Under the pieces are notes generated by a model. That model ran no database searches, was not told where the DNA came from, and worked only from the letters and a program-made list of their open reading frames with translations. Below, piece after piece: positions 1 through 25,020 of a stretch of DNA of 32,614 nucleotides. Position numbers and translations under genes: made by a program. Within the stretch, counting starts at the first letter, position 1. Every line of letters begins with the position of its first letter. The DNA comes from Planctomycetaceae bacterium (GTDB taxonomy: Bacteria; Planctomycetota; Planctomycetia; Pirellulales; UBA1268): assembly GCA_005791575.1 (NCBI GenBank), contig SXWA01000002.1, forward strand, positions 1 to 32,614, written 5' to 3'.

Positions 1-73
1 CTGCGCTTTTCACGGGAGCTGCGCTCCCGGCACCTCATCCATGAGGTGCAGCAGGCTGTGTGTCCACAGCCTG
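1..73 (+). repeat. Multi-hairpin repeat, copy 1 (5' truncated by window edge)
   Basis: Adjacent perfect stem-loops CGGGAGC-tgc-GCTCCCG (13-29), GCACCTCAT-cc-ATGAGGTGC (30-49), CAGGCTGTG-tgtc-CACAGCCTG (52-73); near identical to copies 2-4. Confidence 0.93.
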
Positions 74-79
74 CCAGCA

Positions 80-196
80 GCCCGTGGCCAAAGTCCATCC
101 CTGGCCTTTGGCCACTCGAAAACCTGCGCTTTTCACGGGAGCTGCGCTCCCGGCACCTCTTCCATGAGGTGCCGCAGGCTGTTTGTCCACCGCCTG
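80..196 (+). repeat. Multi-hairpin repeat, copy 2 (full length)
   Basis: GTGGCCAAAG..CTTTGGCCAC (84-115), GAAAA..TTTTC (118-134), CGGGAGC..GCTCCCG (136-152), GCACCTC..GAGGTGC (153-172), CAGGC..GCCTG (175-196). Confidence 0.93.
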
Positions 197-399
197 TTGG
201 CCAGTTCACGGGATCAAATCGGCCAGTTGGTGCGCGCCGGTGCCGTTTCGTCGCTCACGCGAGTGCAGCCCGACGCGGGTGGCCACCGGCCCGCGGCCGA
301 CTGCTCCGAACCGAGTCATTGCGTCGGTGGGTGGAAACTGGCATAAACAGACATTTTATGACCATCCAACCTGGTGTGGAGCGGTCAGAGGCTTCACCT

Positions 400-520
400 A
401 GCAGCCCGTGGCCAAAGTCCATCCCTGGCCTTTGGCCACACGAAAACCTGCGGTTTTCACGGGAGTTGCGCTCCCGGCACCTCATCCATGAGGTGCATCC
501 GGCTGTTTGTCCACAGCCTG
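400..520 (+). repeat. Multi-hairpin repeat, copy 3 (full length)
   Basis: GTGGCCAAAG..CTTTGGCCAC (408-439), GAAAACC-tgc-GGTTTTC (442-458), CGGGAG..CTCCCG (460-476), GCACCTCAT-cc-ATGAGGTGC (477-496), GGCTGT..ACAGCC (501-518). Confidence 0.93.
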
Positions 521-4091: not shown

Positions 4092-5516
4092 TCAACCGAA
4101 CAACGCCGTGATCGCACGCCCGGGGCGGACGAACTGCGGCCGGCCTGCCAGGTCGGGCAGGATCTGCCCCTCGGGCACACCGAGGGCATGGTACAGCGTG
4201 GCGACGAGGTCCCGGGGGGCGACCGGATCGGCGGCAGGGAACGCGGCATGGCGGTCGCTCGCCCCGTGGACATGGCCACGACGGAACGGCCCGCCGGCGA
4301 GCACGGTGCTGAAGCAGCCGGGCCAGTGGTCGCGGCCGTCGGCGCCGGCGCCGGCGTCGCTGTTGACCTGCCCGACGCGCGGCGTGCGGCCGAACTCACC
4401 GGTCCAGACCACGATCGTCTCGTCGAGGAGCCCCCGCTCCTCGAGGTCGTCGAGCAGCGCCGCGAAGGCGATGTCGGCCACCGGCATCAGCCGCTCGCGG
4501 TGGTCGATGAAGTTCCGCGAGTGGGTGTCCCAGTAGACGCTGACGTTCTTGATGCCGTCGTTGGGCCAGAAGACCGTCACCAACGGCACGCCGCGCTCCA
4601 CCAACCGGCGCGCCTGGAGCACCGACTGACCGTGCGGGTTGCGGCCGTAGCGGTCGCGGACCGCATCCGGCTCCTGGCCGAGATCGAAGGCGCCGCGCCC
4701 GCTGGCGGTGCTCGTGAGCAGATCGAACGCGCGCCGCCGGAATTCGTCCTGCAGTGCCGCCGCATCCCCCTTGGCGGCGATCTGCCGGTCGAGCCTGGCG
4801 AGGAGGCGCATCCGGTCGTCGAGACGGTCGATCGAGAGCTGGTCGGAAAGCTCCATGTCGGGCACGCGGTAGCCGGGCAGCGCCGGATCGTCGTCGATGG
4901 TGAGCGGGTCGTGGACGCCCCCCAACCAGCCGGCGAACTGGCCCTGACTCTCCTCGACGAACCGGGGCACGTCGCCCGGCACCGTGGGGCGCATCTGCAC
5001 CACCGGCGGCAGGGCGCCGGTGCCGCGGCCGAGGGCCGCCAGCGCCGAGCCGATGTTGGGCCACTGGGCGCGGCGGTCGGTGCTCGTGACCGGAGGCTCG
5101 CCGGTGAGGAGGAAGCTCGTCGACTTGGTGTGGTCGGCATTGTCGTGGGTCATCGACCGCACGATGCACAAGCGGTCGGTGCGTTGGGCCAACCGGGGAA
5201 AGTGCTCGCTGATGCGGATCCCCGGCACCGCCGTGGCGATCGGCCGGAACTCACCCCGCACCTCCACCGGCGCGTCGGGCTTGGGATCCCACGTCTCGAG
5301 CTGCGACGGACCACCCCACATGAAGAGGAAGATGCAGCGTGTCGCGCGGCCGAACGAGGCGCCGTTCGTCACGGCCTTCGCCGCAGCCGTCTCCGCAGCC
5401 CGCGCCGCGAGCAGTTCGGGCAGGCCGAGCCCGAGCATGCCGAGGCCGCCGAGCCGGAGGATCTCCCGACGCTGGCAGGCGGTGCGGCGAAACTCAGGAC
5501 AGACCGGCCAGTGCAT
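4092..5516 (-). CDS. DUF1501 domain protein (sulfatase-like, twin-Arg-type N-terminus)
   Basis: 'RREILRLGGLGMLGLGLPELL', 'CIFLFMWGGPSQLETWDPKPDAP', 'VVWTGEFGRTPRVG', 'GRDHWPGCFSTVLAGGPFRRGHVHGASD'. ORF extends to 5552; M at 5516 preferred. Confidence 0.9.
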   Translation of the reverse strand: MHWPVCPEFRRTACQRREILRLGGLGMLGLGLPELLAARAAETAAAKAVTNGASFGRATRCIFLFMWGGPSQLETWDPKPDAPVEVRGEFRPIATAVPGIRISEHFPRLAQRTDRLCIVRSMTHDNADHTKSTSFLLTGEPPVTSTDRRAQWPNIGSALAALGRGTGALPPVVQMRPTVPGDVPRFVEESQGQFAGWLGGVHDPLTIDDDPALPGYRVPDMELSDQLSIDRLDDRMRLLARLDRQIAAKGDAAALQDEFRRRAFDLLTSTASGRGAFDLGQEPDAVRDRYGRNPHGQSVLQARRLVERGVPLVTVFWPNDGIKNVSVYWDTHSRNFIDHRERLMPVADIAFAALLDDLEERGLLDETIVVWTGEFGRTPRVGQVNSDAGAGADGRDHWPGCFSTVLAGGPFRRGHVHGASDRHAAFPAADPVAPRDLVATLYHALGVPEGQILPDLAGRPQFVRPGRAITALFG

Positions 5517-5687
5517 CACTCTCTCCCGCGGTCGACGCGACGAGTGTACCAAGCGTGCGGCCGCCGGCTCGCGGCAGCGCGGGGGGGCGGCGTCTGGGGC
5601 GCGGCTGCGGGAAACAGTCCGGCGCTTCCTCGGGACGCTGGCCGTGGATCGATCGGAGCCGCGGCCCGCAGAGGGCGGCGCGGGTGA

Positions 5688-7365: not shown

Positions 7366-7941
7366 ATGGATGCCCCCCTCACCCCACCGTCCACGCATGC
7401 CCGACGACCTCCGCGCCAACTGGTGCGGCAGATGGTGGAAGTGGCCGTGATCGCCGGGCTGGCGGCAGCCCTCCATGCCCTGCGCACGGCCGGCTGGGTC
7501 GATGGCGAACCGCTCTGCTGGATCGTGGTGGGGCTGGCGCTGGCGAAGACCGGCTATTTCCTCGTCGAGAACCTCCAGCACATCCTCCTCGCGACCGCCC
7601 ACGAAATCGCCTACCACCGGTTCCTCGGGCTGATGGGGGTGAACATGATGCAGATCACCCTCTCGTTCGCCCTCGACTGCTGGCTGCTCGAATCGGCGGT
7701 GCCGCGCAGTTTCAGCGGCTTCGACCCGGCGACGATGACTCCGGCGGGGGTGTTTTTCGACTGCTTCTTCTACAGCGTGCTCAATTTCTCCTTCTTCGGG
7801 TTCGGTGAGATCCTCCCGCAGACGATCCCCGCCAAGATCGTCACCCTCCTCGAGGTGATCCTCGCCTTCTTCACCGTGATCTTCCTCCTCTCCGACTTCA
7901 TCAGCCTCAAGGATTCGCTCCGCGGCGGCCGGTCGGGGTAG
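7366..7941 (+). CDS. Membrane protein resembling a two-TM-type (Ion_trans_2) potassium channel pore domain
   Basis: 191 aa from ATG 7366 in frame of ORF 6415..7941; several TM segments; pore-like 'FFYSVLNFSFFGFGEILPQTIPAKIVTLLEVILAFFTVIFLLSDFISL'. Confidence 0.6.
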   Translation: MDAPLTPPSTHARRPPRQLVRQMVEVAVIAGLAAALHALRTAGWVDGEPLCWIVVGLALAKTGYFLVENLQHILLATAHEIAYHRFLGLMGVNMMQITLSFALDCWLLESAVPRSFSGFDPATMTPAGVFFDCFFYSVLNFSFFGFGEILPQTIPAKIVTLLEVILAFFTVIFLLSDFISLKDSLRGGRSG

Positions 7942-7968
7942 CAGCCCGTGGCCAAAGCCCATCCCCGC
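7940..7968 (+). repeat. 5' fragment of the multi-hairpin repeat
   Basis: AGCAGCCCGTGGCCAAAGcCCATCCCcG matches the first ~28 nt of copies 2 and 3 with two differences; the remainder of the unit is not recognisable. Confidence 0.65.
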
Positions 7969-12366: not shown

Positions 12367-14046
12367 TCACGGAGCCGCGGCGGCCGCGGATGGCGTGGCG
12401 CCTGGCGTGGCGATCGCGGGGAGCGCCTGCCAGCGCACCGGGCCCGGATCGCCGGAGAGCGTGATCAGCCCGATGGTGCCATCGAGCGTGCCGGCGGCGA
12501 GATGGCCCCCGTCGCGCGACACGGCCAGCGCCGTCAGCGGCGACTGCGCGATGGCGAACGACCCGAGCTTCTTGCCGTCGGCCAGGGAGTGGAGCCGGAC
12601 CGTGCCGGTGCGATCGCCGGCGGCGATGCGCTCGTCACCGACCACCGCGAGCACGTCCACGGAGCCGGCGAACCCGCCGATCCGCCGCGTCTCCTTGCCC
12701 CCCTCGGCCTCCCAGATGCGCACCGCGCCGTCGGCGCCACCGGTGGCGACGAGGGTTCCTCCGGGCAGCCAGGCGGCGGCCTGCACCGGCGCCTGGTGGG
12801 CGGGGAACGTCGTCACCAGCCGACCGTCGGCCGTATCGACCACCTTGGCGGTCTTGTCGCGGCTCGCCGTCACGATTCGGCGGCCGTCGGCCGAGAACGC
12901 GATCCCCTGCACCCAGTCGGCGTGATCGGTGTGCTCGCCGACCGGACTGAACGGGCCGGAGGTGAAGAGGCGGAGGGAGGGGTCGGCACCGGCGGCGGCG
13001 ATCCGGCCGCCGTCGGGAGTGAAGGCGACCGCGAGCATCGCGTCGTCGGCCGCGCCGAGGTCGGCGAGGAGCGCGCCGGTGTCGGCGTCGAAGACCTTGA
13101 CCTCGCCGAGCGTGCCCGGGGTGCCGGCCGCGACGGCGAGGCGCCGGCCGTCCGGGTGGAAAGCGAGGGACAGGACGCGCTCGGCGACGTTGGTGATGCG
13201 CCCGAGCAGGCGCCCCTCGGGCACACTCCAGACGAGCACCTCGTGGTAGCCGGCGCTCGCCAGACGCGTGCCGTCGGGATGGAAGGCCAGGGCCGACACC
13301 GGCACGGCCACGGGATAGACGGCCGGCGGATCGGGCTGCCGCTGCCGCGGCATGATCCGCACCAGCGCCGCCTCCGGATCGGCACCGGCATCGAGCCGGG
13401 CACCGCGAGCGACCCAGCGGCGGATCAGATCGACCTCGGCTGCCGCGAGCGGCGTGCCGTCCTTCGGCATCGACCCGTCGGCCACCACGCGCACCAGCGC
13501 CGAATCCGGATCGCCGGGCACGACCGCCGCCCCGGCACCGGAATCGGCGAGCAGGGCCGCGTGGTGCGTCATCACGTGGCCGCCCCCCGGCTCCCGCGCC
13601 GTGTGGCAGGCCACGCAGCGGGCCCGGAGGATGGGGGCGATGTCGTGGGTGAAGCTCACCCACTGCCCACCGGCACGGAGCACGTGCTCGATCTCGGCAT
13701 CGCGTTCGGCGAGGCCCGTCCCGAGTGCCCGCACCGCCAACTCCGCCTCACGCTCCCGGGCGGCGAGCGCGGCCCCCTCGGCCTCGAGCGCCCGCAGCGC
13801 CTCCTGCCGGCGCCGCTCGAACCCGCTCACCTCACGCCTTACGTCGGCGGCCCGCGCCTCGGCGGCGACCGTGTCGCGGCGGATCTGCCCGCGCTCGGCA
13901 TCGAGCCGCTCGACCGTCGGCGGCAGCGGCGCGGTCGCCATCTCGTCGGCCAGCGAGACCGCGCCGGCCACCTCGATGGCGCCTGCCAGCGCCGCCGCCA
14001 CCGCGATCCCCGCCCCGCGGCGATCGTGCCGTCCGAATCGAATCAC
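12367..14046 (-). CDS. c-type cytochrome (PSCyt1-like) + WD40 repeat protein
   Basis: 'FTHDIAPILRARCVACHTAREPGGGHVMTHHAALL' followed by WD-type repeats ('VSALAFHPDGTRLASAGYHEVLVWSV', 'VQGIAFSADGRRIVTASRDKTAKVVD', 'GATLVATGGADGAVRIWEA'-like). GTG start overlaps the upstream DUF1501 stop (GTGA). Confidence 0.85.
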   Translation of the reverse strand: MIRFGRHDRRGAGIAVAAALAGAIEVAGAVSLADEMATAPLPPTVERLDAERGQIRRDTVAAEARAADVRREVSGFERRRQEALRALEAEGAALAAREREAELAVRALGTGLAERDAEIEHVLRAGGQWVSFTHDIAPILRARCVACHTAREPGGGHVMTHHAALLADSGAGAAVVPGDPDSALVRVVADGSMPKDGTPLAAAEVDLIRRWVARGARLDAGADPEAALVRIMPRQRQPDPPAVYPVAVPVSALAFHPDGTRLASAGYHEVLVWSVPEGRLLGRITNVAERVLSLAFHPDGRRLAVAAGTPGTLGEVKVFDADTGALLADLGAADDAMLAVAFTPDGGRIAAAGADPSLRLFTSGPFSPVGEHTDHADWVQGIAFSADGRRIVTASRDKTAKVVDTADGRLVTTFPAHQAPVQAAAWLPGGTLVATGGADGAVRIWEAEGGKETRRIGGFAGSVDVLAVVGDERIAAGDRTGTVRLHSLADGKKLGSFAIAQSPLTALAVSRDGGHLAAGTLDGTIGLITLSGDPGPVRWQALPAIATPGATPSAAAAAP

Positions 14047-15431
14047 GCGATCACCTCCGTCACCGGCCGGCCGGCGATCGCCAACGGACGGCCGGCGAGA
14101 TCGTGGATCTCGGCGGCCGGATCGATGCCCATCAGCATGTAGAGCGTGGCGGCGAGGTCCTCCGGGCGCACCGGGTGGCGGGCGGGAAACATCCCCTGCG
14201 CGTCGCTGGCGCCGTGGACGTAGCCCCGTTTCACGCCACCGCCGGCCAGCAGCGCCGTGTAGCACTGCGGCCAGTGGTCGCGGCTCGCCTGGTCGTTGAT
14301 CTTCGGGGTCCGGCCGAACTCTCCCATCCAGAGCACGAGCGTGTCGTCGAGCATGCCGCGCTCCTCGAGATCGTCGAGCAGGGCCGCGAGCGTGCGGTCG
14401 GCGATCGGATGCTGGTACTTGTCGACGATCTCGTACATCCGCGTGTTGTCGAAGCCGTGGGTGTCCCAGCCGCCGTCGTTGACGCGCTTCCCGCCGATCG
14501 ACTTGGCAAACGTCACCGTGACGAACGTCACGCCGGCCTCGACCAGCCGCCGCGCCAGCAGGCACCCCTGGCCGTAGGTGGTGCGGCCGTAGCGGTCGCG
14601 GAGCTGCTCCGGCTCCTCCTCGAGGTCGAACGCCGCCTTCACCCGCGGGCTGGTGAGCATCGTGATCGCCTTGTCGTAGGCGGCGTCGAATCCGGCCACC
14701 TCGGCCGAGCGTTCGAGGAGCCCGGCGTCACGGTCGATGAGCCGCTGCAACTCCCGGCGCCGCTCCATGCGCGACAGTGCCAGATCGGCGGGGAGGGAGA
14801 GCTGCGGCAGCCGGAAGACCGGCGCCGCGGGATCGTCGTTGAAGAAGAACGGATCGTGCCGTTTGCCGAGGAAGCTGGCGTGCTGCCCGGGGGTCACCGA
14901 CCCGTCGGCGAGCGTGTGCGGATAGGAGACGAAGGTCGGCATCTCGTCGCGGCGCGGCAGGAGGGCGTCGACCACCGAGCCATAGGCGGGCCAGAGGTCG
15001 AGCGAGTCGCGGAGCCGTTGGTCGTCGCTGGGTGGGGCATGACCGGTGAGGGCGTAATAGCCGGCGGAATTGTGGTTCTTCATCGTGTGGGTCATGCTGC
15101 GGATGAGCGTGACCCGGTCCATCCGCTTCGCCATCTCCGGGAAGTGCTCGCAGACCGGCAGCCCCGGCACGACGCTCGGGATCGGCGCCAGCGGCCCGCG
15201 GATCTCGCGCGGCGCGTCGGGCTTCATGTCGAATGTGTCGAGATGGCTCGGGCCGCCCCACTGGAAGAGGAAGATCACGCGCCGCGCCCGCACCGGCAGC
15301 GCCGACGGCGCCGCCGACAGGACGCGCGGCAGCGTCAGCCCGAGCAGCCCCGCCCCGCCGGCGGTCAGCAGGTGGCGGCGCGGCACGGGGAGCGTGCGGA
15401 ACCCGCGGCAACCGTGGAGGGGGGCTGGCAT
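14043..15431 (-). CDS. DUF1501 domain protein
   Basis: 'VPRRHLLTAGGAGLLGLTLPRVL', 'VIFLFQWGGPSHLDTFDMKPDAP', 'VLWMGEFGRTPKINDQASRDHWPQCYTALLAGGGVKRGYVHGASD'. Confidence 0.92.
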   Translation of the reverse strand: MPAPLHGCRGFRTLPVPRRHLLTAGGAGLLGLTLPRVLSAAPSALPVRARRVIFLFQWGGPSHLDTFDMKPDAPREIRGPLAPIPSVVPGLPVCEHFPEMAKRMDRVTLIRSMTHTMKNHNSAGYYALTGHAPPSDDQRLRDSLDLWPAYGSVVDALLPRRDEMPTFVSYPHTLADGSVTPGQHASFLGKRHDPFFFNDDPAAPVFRLPQLSLPADLALSRMERRRELQRLIDRDAGLLERSAEVAGFDAAYDKAITMLTSPRVKAAFDLEEEPEQLRDRYGRTTYGQGCLLARRLVEAGVTFVTVTFAKSIGGKRVNDGGWDTHGFDNTRMYEIVDKYQHPIADRTLAALLDDLEERGMLDDTLVLWMGEFGRTPKINDQASRDHWPQCYTALLAGGGVKRGYVHGASDAQGMFPARHPVRPEDLAATLYMLMGIDPAAEIHDLAGRPLAIAGRPVTEVIA

Positions 15432-15461: not shown

Positions 15462-17822
15462 TCAATTGCGGAACAGGAGTTCCTTGGCGTTGAGCAGCGC
15501 CCAGGCGAGATCCTCGGCGGCGGTCCGCGCGTCGGCCGCGGTGGCGAAGGTCGCCACGGCGGCATCGCGCTCGGCCGGCGTGGGGGGCCGGACGAGCGCC
15601 GTCCAGAACAGTTCGTCGACGATCTCCCCGGGGCTGCGGTCGGCGCTGATCAACCGGGCGATCCGGTTGTCGCCGTCGGCGAGGCGGCCGTGGAGGCCGC
15701 TGCCCCCCACCAGATCGAGCGCTTGGGAGAGGGTCGGTTCGTTGCTCCGCTCGCACTCGCAGGCCAGCAGCCGCTCGGGCCGGCCGAAGAGGCGCAGGAA
15801 CCGGTCCCCGTCTGCCACCTGCCGGCGGACCCTTTCGACCCCCGCGACCTCGCCGGCCCGCGTGCCCGCCGGATAGCCCTCGAACCGGGCGGCGGCACCG
15901 AGAATCCGCGCCTGGGAATCGAGGATCCGTTCGGCGGAGCGGCGCCGGACGATCGCCCGGGCATAGAGCGATTCATCGGCCGCGATCCCCCCGCTGTCGG
16001 CCCCCTGGGCCGCCGGCACGTCGGCCCCCTGGGCCGCCGGCAGATCGGCTGCCCGCGCCGCCAGGCCATACACCCGCGACGCGCAGAGAAGGCGGACCAG
16101 CGCCCGGACATCGTGGCCCGAGGCGATGAAGGCGTCGGTGAGCCGCTCGAGGAGCGCGGGGTGCGAGGCGGGATTGGTGTCGCGGAGATCGTCCACCGGC
16201 TCCACGAGCCCGCGCCCCATGACATGGAACCAGATCCGGTTGACCTGCGCCCGGGCGAAGCGCCGGCTGCCCGGGGCGGTCATCCAGTGCGCGAGGCCCC
16301 CGAGTCGGTCGTCGGCGGGGGCCGGATTCTCGCCGAGCCAGCGCGGCCGCGCTGGCGACTTGGTGCGCGGGTTCTTCAGTTCCTCCGGCTCCTTCACCAG
16401 CACCTTCTGCTCGCCGACGAACTCGTGGCTGTCGAGCTTGTCCTGCCGATCGTTGGCCACCACCTCGTAGTCGATGCCGGTGAACACCGCCGACCAGTCG
16501 TGGTATTCGTCCTGGAGCCAGTGGTCGAAGGGATGGTTGTGGCATTTGGCGCATTGGAGGCGGACGCCGAGGAACACCTGCGCGACCGTCTCGGCGCGGA
16601 GCTGCGGCTCGCGGTGGGCGCGCCAGAAGTTGGCCGGTGGAACCTCGTAGGTGCTGCCCCGCGCGGCGACGATCTCGCGGACGAACCGATCGAGCGGCAT
16701 GTTGTCGGCGAACGCCTTCCGCATCCACTCGTGGAACACCGTCACCCCCTTGGCGTCGAGGGTCTTCTCCTCGGTGCGGAGGAGGTCGCCCCAGATCGCG
16801 GCCCACTGGAGCGCCCATTCGGGGCGTGCGAGGAGCGCGTCGACGAGCCGCTCCCGCTTGTCGGGGGCACTGTCGGCGGCAAACGCCCGGGCCTCGTCCG
16901 GCGTGGGGAGCACGCCGAGGAGATCGAGATGGATGCGCCGCACGAAGACGAGATCCGCGGCCGGCGGCGCGGGGTTCACGCCGAGTTGTCGGAGGCGGGC
17001 GAACACCTCCTCATCGACCAGATTCACCGGATCGGGTCCGGTCCATTGGAATGCCGTTCGCGCTGGCACCAGCGCCACACGTGCCACGGTCTGAGCGGTG
17101 AGATAGCGGACGGCGACCGAGACGAGCGTCGGCCGCGGCAGGGAGACGACTCCGTCTGCCGACACCGTGACGAGCGGGTCGGACGGCTCGTAGACCGCCA
17201 TCCGCGTCACGTCGGCCGATCGGCCGTCGGCGAACGTGGCGGTGACCCGCAGTGGCACCGCCCCCGCTGCCCCTATGACACAGTCGATCACCGCGTCGGC
17301 GGGCTCGACTTTCAGCCCTGTCACCTCGGCACCTTCGGGCGGCGGCCCCGCGGCCCCTCCCGCGATCCACTGCCGGAGAATGGCAAACTCGGGATCGTCG
17401 CTGCCGAACCGGCGGCCGCCCCCATGGGGCACGGCGGCGGTCGCCTTGAGGAGGAGCAGGCTCCGTTCGGGCTCGACACGGTTGATCCGCCGCCCGGCCG
17501 CCGACTCGACGAGCGCCTGCCAATCGGCCGCCGGATCCTGGCCGCGGAGGGAGAGGAACAGCCCCCCTTTGCCGTTGAGATTGCCGTGGCAGGTGCCGGC
17601 GTTGCAGCCCCCCTTGGCGAGGACCGCCATCACGTCGGTCGCGAACGCCACGCTGGCACCGACGGGTGCCGCTTCGAGCGCGCGGGGAGCGGCCGCCCCG
17701 GCAGGTGCGTCGCCGGCCAACGCCGGCAGCGTGGCGAGTGCCCCCGCGACGAGCCACCCGGCAACGCCCAGCGTTTTGGCCGGGCCAGAGCAGAGCTGGT
17801 GCGGGGCAGACGGAATTCGCAT
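15462..17822 (-). CDS. DUF1549/DUF1553 (PSCyt2/PSD1) protein
   Basis: 'DEEVFARLRQLGVNPAPPAADLVFVRRIHLDLLGVLPTPDEARAF', 'LGVRLQCAKCHNHPFDHWLQDEYHDWSAVFTGIDYE', 'RFARAQVNRIWFHVMGRGLVEPVDDLRDTNPASHPALLERLTDAF'. ORF extends to 17852. Confidence 0.92.
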   Translation of the reverse strand: MRIPSAPHQLCSGPAKTLGVAGWLVAGALATLPALAGDAPAGAAAPRALEAAPVGASVAFATDVMAVLAKGGCNAGTCHGNLNGKGGLFLSLRGQDPAADWQALVESAAGRRINRVEPERSLLLLKATAAVPHGGGRRFGSDDPEFAILRQWIAGGAAGPPPEGAEVTGLKVEPADAVIDCVIGAAGAVPLRVTATFADGRSADVTRMAVYEPSDPLVTVSADGVVSLPRPTLVSVAVRYLTAQTVARVALVPARTAFQWTGPDPVNLVDEEVFARLRQLGVNPAPPAADLVFVRRIHLDLLGVLPTPDEARAFAADSAPDKRERLVDALLARPEWALQWAAIWGDLLRTEEKTLDAKGVTVFHEWMRKAFADNMPLDRFVREIVAARGSTYEVPPANFWRAHREPQLRAETVAQVFLGVRLQCAKCHNHPFDHWLQDEYHDWSAVFTGIDYEVVANDRQDKLDSHEFVGEQKVLVKEPEELKNPRTKSPARPRWLGENPAPADDRLGGLAHWMTAPGSRRFARAQVNRIWFHVMGRGLVEPVDDLRDTNPASHPALLERLTDAFIASGHDVRALVRLLCASRVYGLAARAADLPAAQGADVPAAQGADSGGIAADESLYARAIVRRRSAERILDSQARILGAAARFEGYPAGTRAGEVAGVERVRRQVADGDRFLRLFGRPERLLACECERSNEPTLSQALDLVGGSGLHGRLADGDNRIARLISADRSPGEIVDELFWTALVRPPTPAERDAAVATFATAADARTAAEDLAWALLNAKELLFRN

Positions 17823-17931
17823 CGGAGGACCGCCATGGTCCGTGGCATCCACCCACGGTCCGACAAGTCTACCAACGACCGCCTCGCCCGGTCGCCAGCG
17901 GTCTTCCGGCCCAGCACACCGTGCCTCCGCC

Positions 17932-23996: not shown

Positions 23997-24889
23997 TCGC
24001 CAGCCCGCCGCTGCCGCCACGGGTGGTCGTCTACGAAGGACGCGGCAGCACGCCGTTCGATCCCGGCGAACGCAGCCGCCTCCTCGCCGGTCTCCTCGAT
24101 CGCGGCTATTCGGTCGTCCGCGCGGGTGCCGGGCGGGCGGAGGCGGGCGCGGCCACGGCATTCATCGTTCTCGGCTGCTTCGGCGGCGCGCCGCCCGAGG
24201 TGGGCGACGCCGCGGGGCGCGACGTCGCCGTCTGCGACATCACGGGCCGCTCGGCCGACGAGGCGATCGCCCTCGTCGAGCAGCGCCGCGACGGTCGGCC
24301 GATGAACCGCCCCGACGCCGCCGGCCCCGGCCAGTGGAAGCCCTGGTTCCCGGTGATCGATCTGGCCCGCTGCACCAACTGCATGCAGTGCCTGAGCTTC
24401 TGCCTGTTCGACGTCTACGGTGTCGCCGCCGACCACACGCTGCGGGTCGAGAACCCGGCCAACTGCAAGGTGAACTGCCCCGCCTGCTCCCGGGTCTGCC
24501 CCGAAGTGGCGATCATGTTCCCCAAGTACCACGCCGGACCGATCGACGGCGGGCCGGTTTCGGAGTCGGACGTCCAGCGCGAGAAGATGAAGGTCGACAT
24601 CTCCGCCCTCCTCGGTGGCGACATTTACTCGCGGCTCCGCGAGCGCTCCGCCGAGGCGAAGCAGCGGTTCTCGCGCGAACGGAGCGCCGACCAGGCTCTC
24701 GCGGAGCGGCGCCGCTGCCTGACGAAGCTCGCCGATGCCGCGGCGATCCCCCGCGAGGTGCTCGACGCCCTCCCCAGTCCGGAGGAGATCCAGCGCCGCA
24801 CCGAGGAGGCGGCGCGACGGGCCGAGGCGGCGCGGGTGGCCCAGGGGGCCCGTGCCGCCCAGGGCAGCACACCGGCCGGAACGACCTGA
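23993..24889 (+). CDS. 4Fe-4S ferredoxin-type protein (two clusters) with N-terminal extension
   Basis: 'CTNCMQCLSFC' and 'CKVNCPACSRVCPEVAIMF'; ATGA overlap with previous gene. Confidence 0.87.
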   Translation: MIASPPLPPRVVVYEGRGSTPFDPGERSRLLAGLLDRGYSVVRAGAGRAEAGAATAFIVLGCFGGAPPEVGDAAGRDVAVCDITGRSADEAIALVEQRRDGRPMNRPDAAGPGQWKPWFPVIDLARCTNCMQCLSFCLFDVYGVAADHTLRVENPANCKVNCPACSRVCPEVAIMFPKYHAGPIDGGPVSESDVQREKMKVDISALLGGDIYSRLRERSAEAKQRFSRERSADQALAERRRCLTKLADAAAIPREVLDALPSPEEIQRRTEEAARRAEAARVAQGARAAQGSTPAGTT

Positions 24890-24957: not shown

Positions 24958-25020
24958 CACGGGAGCGACGCTCCCGGCACCTCTTCCATGAGGTGCGGCA
25001 GGCTGTTTATCCACAGCCTG
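24958..25020 (+). repeat. Multi-hairpin repeat, copy 4 (3' half)
   Basis: CGGGAGC-gac-GCTCCCG (24960-24976), GCACCTC..GAGGTGC (24977-24996), CAGGCTGT..ACAGCCTG (24999-25020). Confidence 0.92.

Follow-up and report, generated by a model that had tools for sequence, protein, structure and literature searches.

The window analysed here, the entire contig SXWA01000002.1 of a Planctomycetaceae bacterium (G000:C212, 32,614 bases), opens inside a copy of a repeat made of neighbouring hairpins. This locus raises the questions of what kind of element the repeat is, how it spreads, and why its hairpins have been kept. A preliminary description made from the sequence alone had reported a clustered unit of ~120 bp with up to five hairpins, and had offered a non-autonomous mobile element (MITE- or REPIN-like), a structured RNA, and a substrate for single-stranded DNA recombination as possible readings. 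As a whole, the explanation we find highly probable is that of a MITE mobilised by an IS1182-like element, with hairpins probably kept by selection on folding.

The repeat in the window

The copies in the window, and the parts of copy 3, which was the query for the genome-wide search, are as follows.

1..73, + strand: copy 1, the 3' 73 nt of the 119-bp element; 71/73 bases as in the consensus; the contig starts within the copy
78..196, + strand: copy 2, full 119-bp element; 114/119 bases as in the consensus
402..520, + strand: copy 3, full 119-bp element; 112/119 bases as in the consensus; 127.6 bits against the covariance model
7942..7967, + strand: left-end remnant, 26 bp, directly 3' of GTAG and the stop codon of an ORF ending at 7941
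~24958..25020, + strand: copy 4, 3' part, with hairpins 3-5 and the right end; 57/63 bases as in the consensus
402..420, + strand: left terminal inverted repeat of copy 3, CAGCCCGTGGCCAAAGTCC; same type as the 3' end of the IS1182-like element
408..439, + strand: hairpin 1, GTGGCCAAAG / CTTTGGCCAC; 96% of cells paired, 2 pairs changed on both sides; covaries across genera
442..458, + strand: hairpin 2, GAAAACC / GGTTTTC; 100% of cells paired, 2 pairs changed on both sides
460..476, + strand: hairpin 3, CGGGAGT / GCTCCCG; 97% of cells paired, 2 pairs changed on both sides
477..496, + strand: hairpin 4, GCACCTCA / TGAGGTGC; 90% of cells paired, 5 pairs changed on both sides
499..520, + strand: right terminal repeat (CAGGCTGTGGACAAA inwards) and lineage-specific fifth hairpin; repeat conserved, hairpin with 79% of cells paired and a variable 5' arm

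The clustered, hairpin-rich repeat that had been reported is confirmed by these data, and the region of copy 3 folds at -65.6 kcal/mol (z = -6.7 relative to dinucleotide shuffles, with 0 of 200 shuffles as stable). Copies 1 and 2, described earlier as nearly head-to-tail, form a tandem with a spacing of exactly 4 bp, the junction being CCAG (74-77), and copy 3 does follow after ~200 bp. The flanks of copy 2 are CCAG (74-77) on the left and TTGG (197-200) on the right, and those of copy 3 are CTAG (398-401) and CCAG (521-524). The partial copy noted 24 kb away is also genuine: ATAG follows its right end, its 5' half either is unrelated or has diverged strongly, and it has a stop codon at 24889 on one side and, on the other, a start codon at ~25057. 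The left-end remnant at 7942-7967 was absent from the earlier list of copies.

Copy number, boundaries and genomic placement

The genome-wide search proposed in the preliminary description recovered numerous further copies in the host assembly (3.84 Mb, 74.5% complete). A 37-bp core pattern yielded 83 + 69 = 152 matches and a left-end pattern yielded 93 + 94 = 187, with 0 matches for the reversed control of either pattern. Sampling of ~60 stretches of this genome provided 100 distinct full copies with their flanks, 95 of which were exactly 119 bp in length, and the median identity of copies to the consensus was 95%. The element extends from CAGCCCG to CAGCCTG and is accompanied by a 4-bp target duplication; the earlier unit was right in its approximate size and slightly off at its boundary. 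The terminal inverted repeats are imperfect and ~16 bp long (CAGCCCGTGGCCAAAG / CAGGCTGTGGACAAA), and the left end CAGCCCGTGGCCAAA and right end CAGGCTGTGGACAAA likewise form an imperfect inverted repeat of ~16 bp. At least 27 contig ends of the host genome, as counted from coordinates, lie within ~260 bp of a copy, so the true copy number is probably higher than that counted, and the repeat probably helps to break these assemblies.

Insertions avoid genes and are mostly intergenic: 30 of 81 were located in called coding sequence compared with 274 of 300 random sites, a contrast that is valid only relative to the random sites, as the simple gene-finding model over-calls coding sequence. The orientation of neighbouring genes follows no clear rule (20 '>>', 9 '<<', 12 '<>' and 9 '><'), and a terminator or insulator role was rejected for this reason. 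Tandem copies (8 full pairs tested) have one 4-bp junction in common, and tandem neighbours average 98% identity versus 90% over all pairs, which suggests that tandems result from local duplication more than from independent insertion. We also encountered minimal elements of 43-44 bp, consisting of one palindrome and both ends, at G000:C170:7979-8021 and at loci L123, L135 and L137 of genome G008, those of G000 adjoining 119-bp copies. In the congener G002, left ends recur every 105 bp at a contig end (C1:211151-211393).

Target duplication and empty sites

Among solo copies, which are those without a tandem neighbour, the left 4 bp were exactly identical to the right 4 bp in 38 of 72 cases, whereas 5000 shuffles of the right flanks gave a mean of 4.6 matches and a maximum of 15. 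The target consensus is YYRR (C/T-T/C-A/G-G/A), with CTAG as the best site. Palindromic targets, as in IS1272, were rejected, since the flanks have no symmetry beyond YYRR. The remaining 34 of the 72 solo copies carry imperfect duplications, reflecting either age or recombination between copies. One copy (G000:C37:24614-24732) is inserted at a CTGA that includes the upstream gene's stop codon. This site is empty in all three congeners, where the same gene pair is found with a single CTGA (or, within that stop codon, TGA). At a second locus (G000:C247 versus G002), a gap-free alignment with 93% identity is obtained after removing the element plus 4 bp; because its two flanks differ, this locus backs the length of the insertion and not the duplication. 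The repeat is almost certainly a transposable element, non-autonomous and of the MITE type, and the mobile-element option of the preliminary description is thus upheld by the duplication, the empty site and ends matched by an insertion sequence.

An IS1182-like element with the same ends

In the congener G003 (RFRL01000267.1, 'Planctomycetia bacterium isolate WB4_3_0930'), a DDE transposase is bordered by CTAG directly followed by CAGCCCGTGGCCCAAGT, the same sequence that forms the left end of the 119-bp repeat. Related transposases of 351-455 aa are encoded in 13 of the 72 family genomes, both in a congener and in other genera, and their best NCBIfam match is IS1182 (131-182 bits); as the best score of 182 bits falls below the curated cut-off of 270, we refer to these elements as IS1182-like. 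Their 3' ends, CTAG followed by CAGCCCGTGGCCCAAGT, are of the MITE left-end type and their 5' ends (CAGGCTGTGGAAAAAGTCGTC, CAGGCTGTGGATAAAGTCGTC) are of the MITE right-end type, with CTAG followed by CAGGCTGTGGAAAAAGTCGTC at the border. The end scan at 2-3 mismatches produced many chance matches, and only transposase borders with YYRR-type flanks were kept. An intact copy at locus L165 (64-1554, 1491 bp, with a 453-aa transposase) is flanked on both sides by CTAG (60-63 and 1555-1558) and, like ISPse1, has two traits of the IS1182 type, ends of ~16 bp and a duplication of 4 bp. Furthermore, in G031 the end of the IS (CGGCCCGTGGACAAAGTC) is identical to that of the MITE (CTGCCCGTGGACAAAGTC) at 17 of 18 bases.

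Judging from these sequence comparisons, IS1182-like elements very probably mobilise the 119-bp repeat. An autonomous element that shares both ends would supply the DDE transposase in trans, and this would mobilise the 119-bp element and insert it at YYRR sites, best at CTAG, with duplication of the tetranucleotide. Copies would thereby build up mostly between genes, with a single common 4-bp junction wherever they lie in tandem. An IS1182-like transposase was not found in the host assembly, which is 74.5% complete and broken at repeats, and a PF01609 search of that assembly gave no match; with an assembly this incomplete, absence of the transposase from the host genome is not proven. The repeat had no match in phage, plasmid and viral collections. 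Beside an IS1182-like end at locus L142 (G043:C318) lies an element of the IS701 family (~820-2260), which has TTCGACTTTTGCAGTTT ends and is flanked by CTAG; both elements use CTAG.

Conservation of the hairpins across the family

The five-hairpin structure was placed on a covariation alignment of ten sequences from six genera. Of its cells, 92% were paired, a value biased upwards because the structure was taken from the host genome consensus, and 12 pairs exhibited double changes, which this bias does not explain. None of 500 shuffles paired as well, and slid partners were 33-47% paired. Hairpins 1-4 hold 11 of the 12 double-changed pairs, and compensatory changes have preserved them in at least six genera, whereas hairpin 5 is not conserved. 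An independent consensus fold omits hairpin 5, which arises in the genus of the window, where neighbouring sequence can by chance pair with the right terminal repeat. The earlier count of up to five hairpins therefore stands for four of them across genera, while the fifth is only lineage-specific. The interior of ~80 bp is a row of short hairpins, not IS sequence.

A covariance model, another check proposed at the outset, found matches to the element in all 12 genera of the bacterial family (63 of 72 genomes) and in three weakly matching genomes outside the family (order-wide sample of 118). Bacterial MITE families are usually regarded as restricted to a single species or a few; here, in contrast, a single architecture spans that breadth of a planctomycete family. 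Among the low-scoring covariance matches there may be elements of a second architecture, with common ends and different hairpins. Elements of a second MITE architecture, 117-133 bp in length and with the same ends and target type, are present at L120-L134 (G008) and L221:10586 (G003). Their interior consists of hairpin 1, a long hairpin around AAAGCCGAGGTTTT, and a hairpin of the GCATC..GATGC type, and the stem sequences differ between the G008 and G003 genera with the layout kept. Locus L056 has a further, different interior.

Level of selection and alternative explanations

Private mutations were scored in 91 distinct full copies from one genome, yielding ~108 private changes, a sample in which weak selection would be missed. 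They amounted to 1.00 per stem site versus 0.72 per unpaired site, G.T and A.C mismatches numbered 14 and 12, respectively, and a Watson-Crick pair survived in only 4 of the 80 private changes in stems. Given that stems mutate at the rate of loops and that G.T is about as common as A.C, resident copies have neither protected stems nor the preference that tolerance of RNA pairing would leave. As the stems are nevertheless kept between genera, selection on the structure seems to act among lineages that spread and not in resident copies. This suggests that single copies decay freely and that folding aids spread rather than the host, the simplest reading being that copies that fold go on to multiply. 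Such copies, as extruded or single-stranded DNA, would be better mobilised or tolerated, probably without any per-copy job for the host. We regard the proposition that the hairpins are selected for mobility as evenly balanced. More tentatively, and with less confidence, it could be the folded DNA shape, rather than the sequence, that is the trait selected for mobility, with the row of hairpins carried family-wide by compensatory evolution. The transposase or the replication machinery would then presumably act on extruded or single-stranded hairpins, in line, by analogy, with the stem-loop preference reported for IS1272. A role of single-stranded DNA in mobility, as had been proposed, is possible. 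Within one data set, selection acting on mobility is here told apart from selection exerted by the host, and the role of folded DNA in IS1182-type transposition becomes testable.

Several other explanations must be weighed against an IS1182-like-mobilised MITE. The hairpins beside a conserved tetranucleotide, the high copy number and the clusters are all reminiscent of REP/REPIN-type repeats, and YTAG is similar to the GTAG tag of REPs (PMC3733652). On that reading, the single-stranded hairpins would be the substrate of a RAYT or some other transposase of the IS200/IS605 type (Y1, HUH), which would move the repeat. However, the ends of the 119-bp repeat are inverted repeats that match a DDE element, and no Y1 transposase (PF01797) was detected in the host genome (74.5% complete) or in 8 of 11 genomes searched, which also answers in the negative the earlier proposal to look for a RAYT or IS200/IS605 gene in the host. 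The genuine 4-bp duplication with its empty-site control largely refutes such an origin, as we know of no target duplication among HUH elements, and we consider it extremely improbable.

The strong fold with its compensatory changes, the mostly intergenic placement and the occurrence in all 12 genera could also be features of a structured RNA, or of a repeat serving the host as a terminator, mRNA stabiliser or insulator, with mobility being secondary. Such a function should leave traces in the individual copies, but private mutations are as common in stems as at unpaired sites and G.T roughly equals A.C, and selection for RNA pairing in single copies was rejected on these grounds. In addition, there is no T-run 3' of the hairpins, the copies have no clear preferred orientation with respect to the genes next to them, and the Rfam comparison gave nothing credible at either gathering or relaxed thresholds, making the RNA option of the preliminary description quite improbable. 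It is also conceivable that the repeat is an IS1182-type MITE whose hairpins are kept by mutation bias alone, through quasi-palindrome correction (template switching) in which one arm would be rewritten from the other without selection. This would account for double changes without many one-sided intermediates and for the near identity of tandem neighbours (mean 98%). Yet correction should leave many private stem changes that keep a Watson-Crick pair, and the 4 of 80 observed render this explanation unlikely.

Relation to known elements

The repeat is of a known kind, an IS1182-type MITE, and is new as a family-wide, hairpin-built variant. The preliminary description had held that a match to a known IS terminus or an Rfam family would speak against it; the ends do match an IS in kind, namely the IS1182-like element, and no Rfam family is matched. 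RUP, Correia/NEMIS and Nezha MITEs are short, high-copy, intergenic and mobilised in trans by IS, and the 119-bp repeat resembles them in size, abundance, placement and proposed mobilisation in trans. To our knowledge, these MITEs have other IS partners and targets and do not consist of four to five side-by-side hairpins. All three are named in PMC3733652. Like REP/REPIN sequences with their RAYT, the repeat has palindromes, high copy number and a tetranucleotide at the foot; unlike them, it has a target duplication and a DDE partner, and no RAYT was detected in its genome.

Within the IS1182 family, ISPse1 is 1653 bp in length with 16/16 bp ends and a 4-bp duplication (PMC3281130). The proposed partner is similar in having a DDE transposase closest to the IS1182 model, a length of 1.49 kb, ~16-bp ends and a 4-bp CTAG duplication, whereas its transposase scores below the cut-off (182 versus 270 bits) and the studied repeat is without a gene. 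IS1272, another member, transposes by stem-loop replacement, targeting stem-loops without duplication (PMC5678879). It belongs to the same broad IS family, and its transposase group is linked to stem-loop DNA. Unlike IS1272, which replaces inverted-repeat targets and makes no duplication, the 119-bp repeat duplicates 4 bp; its targets are plain YYRR sites, and the target-replacing mode is consequently inapplicable here. By analogy, the stem-loop targeting of IS1272 may still offer a lead as to how folding helps.

IS1182-derived MITEs have also been described in Methanosarcina acetivorans, with ISMac2 as partner. As described in PMC3852290, they are 160-169 bp long with 25-26 bp inverted repeats common with the IS1182-family element, one of their two sets has 4-bp direct repeats, and there are 7-14 copies in one archaeon. 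The 119-bp repeat is likewise non-autonomous with IS1182-type ends, a likeness of description and not of sequence, whereas it has >150 pattern matches compared with the 7-14 copies given there, in a passage that says nothing of conserved hairpins in a row.

Other features of the window

The right repeat of copy 4 has TTATCCACA at 25002-25015, where copies 1-3 have TGTCCACA. The former, which we take to be a textbook DnaA-box sequence, is also found within right terminal repeats of genera g5, g6 and g8 (e.g. L036, L041, L043), and its presence there is possibly a chance match. Two DUF1501 paralogues, at 4092-5552 (- strand) and 14043-15431 (- strand), explain long direct repeats ~9.9 kb apart. 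One of them adjoins a PSCyt2/PSD1 protein at 15462-17852 (- strand), a pairing that is common in planctomycetes.
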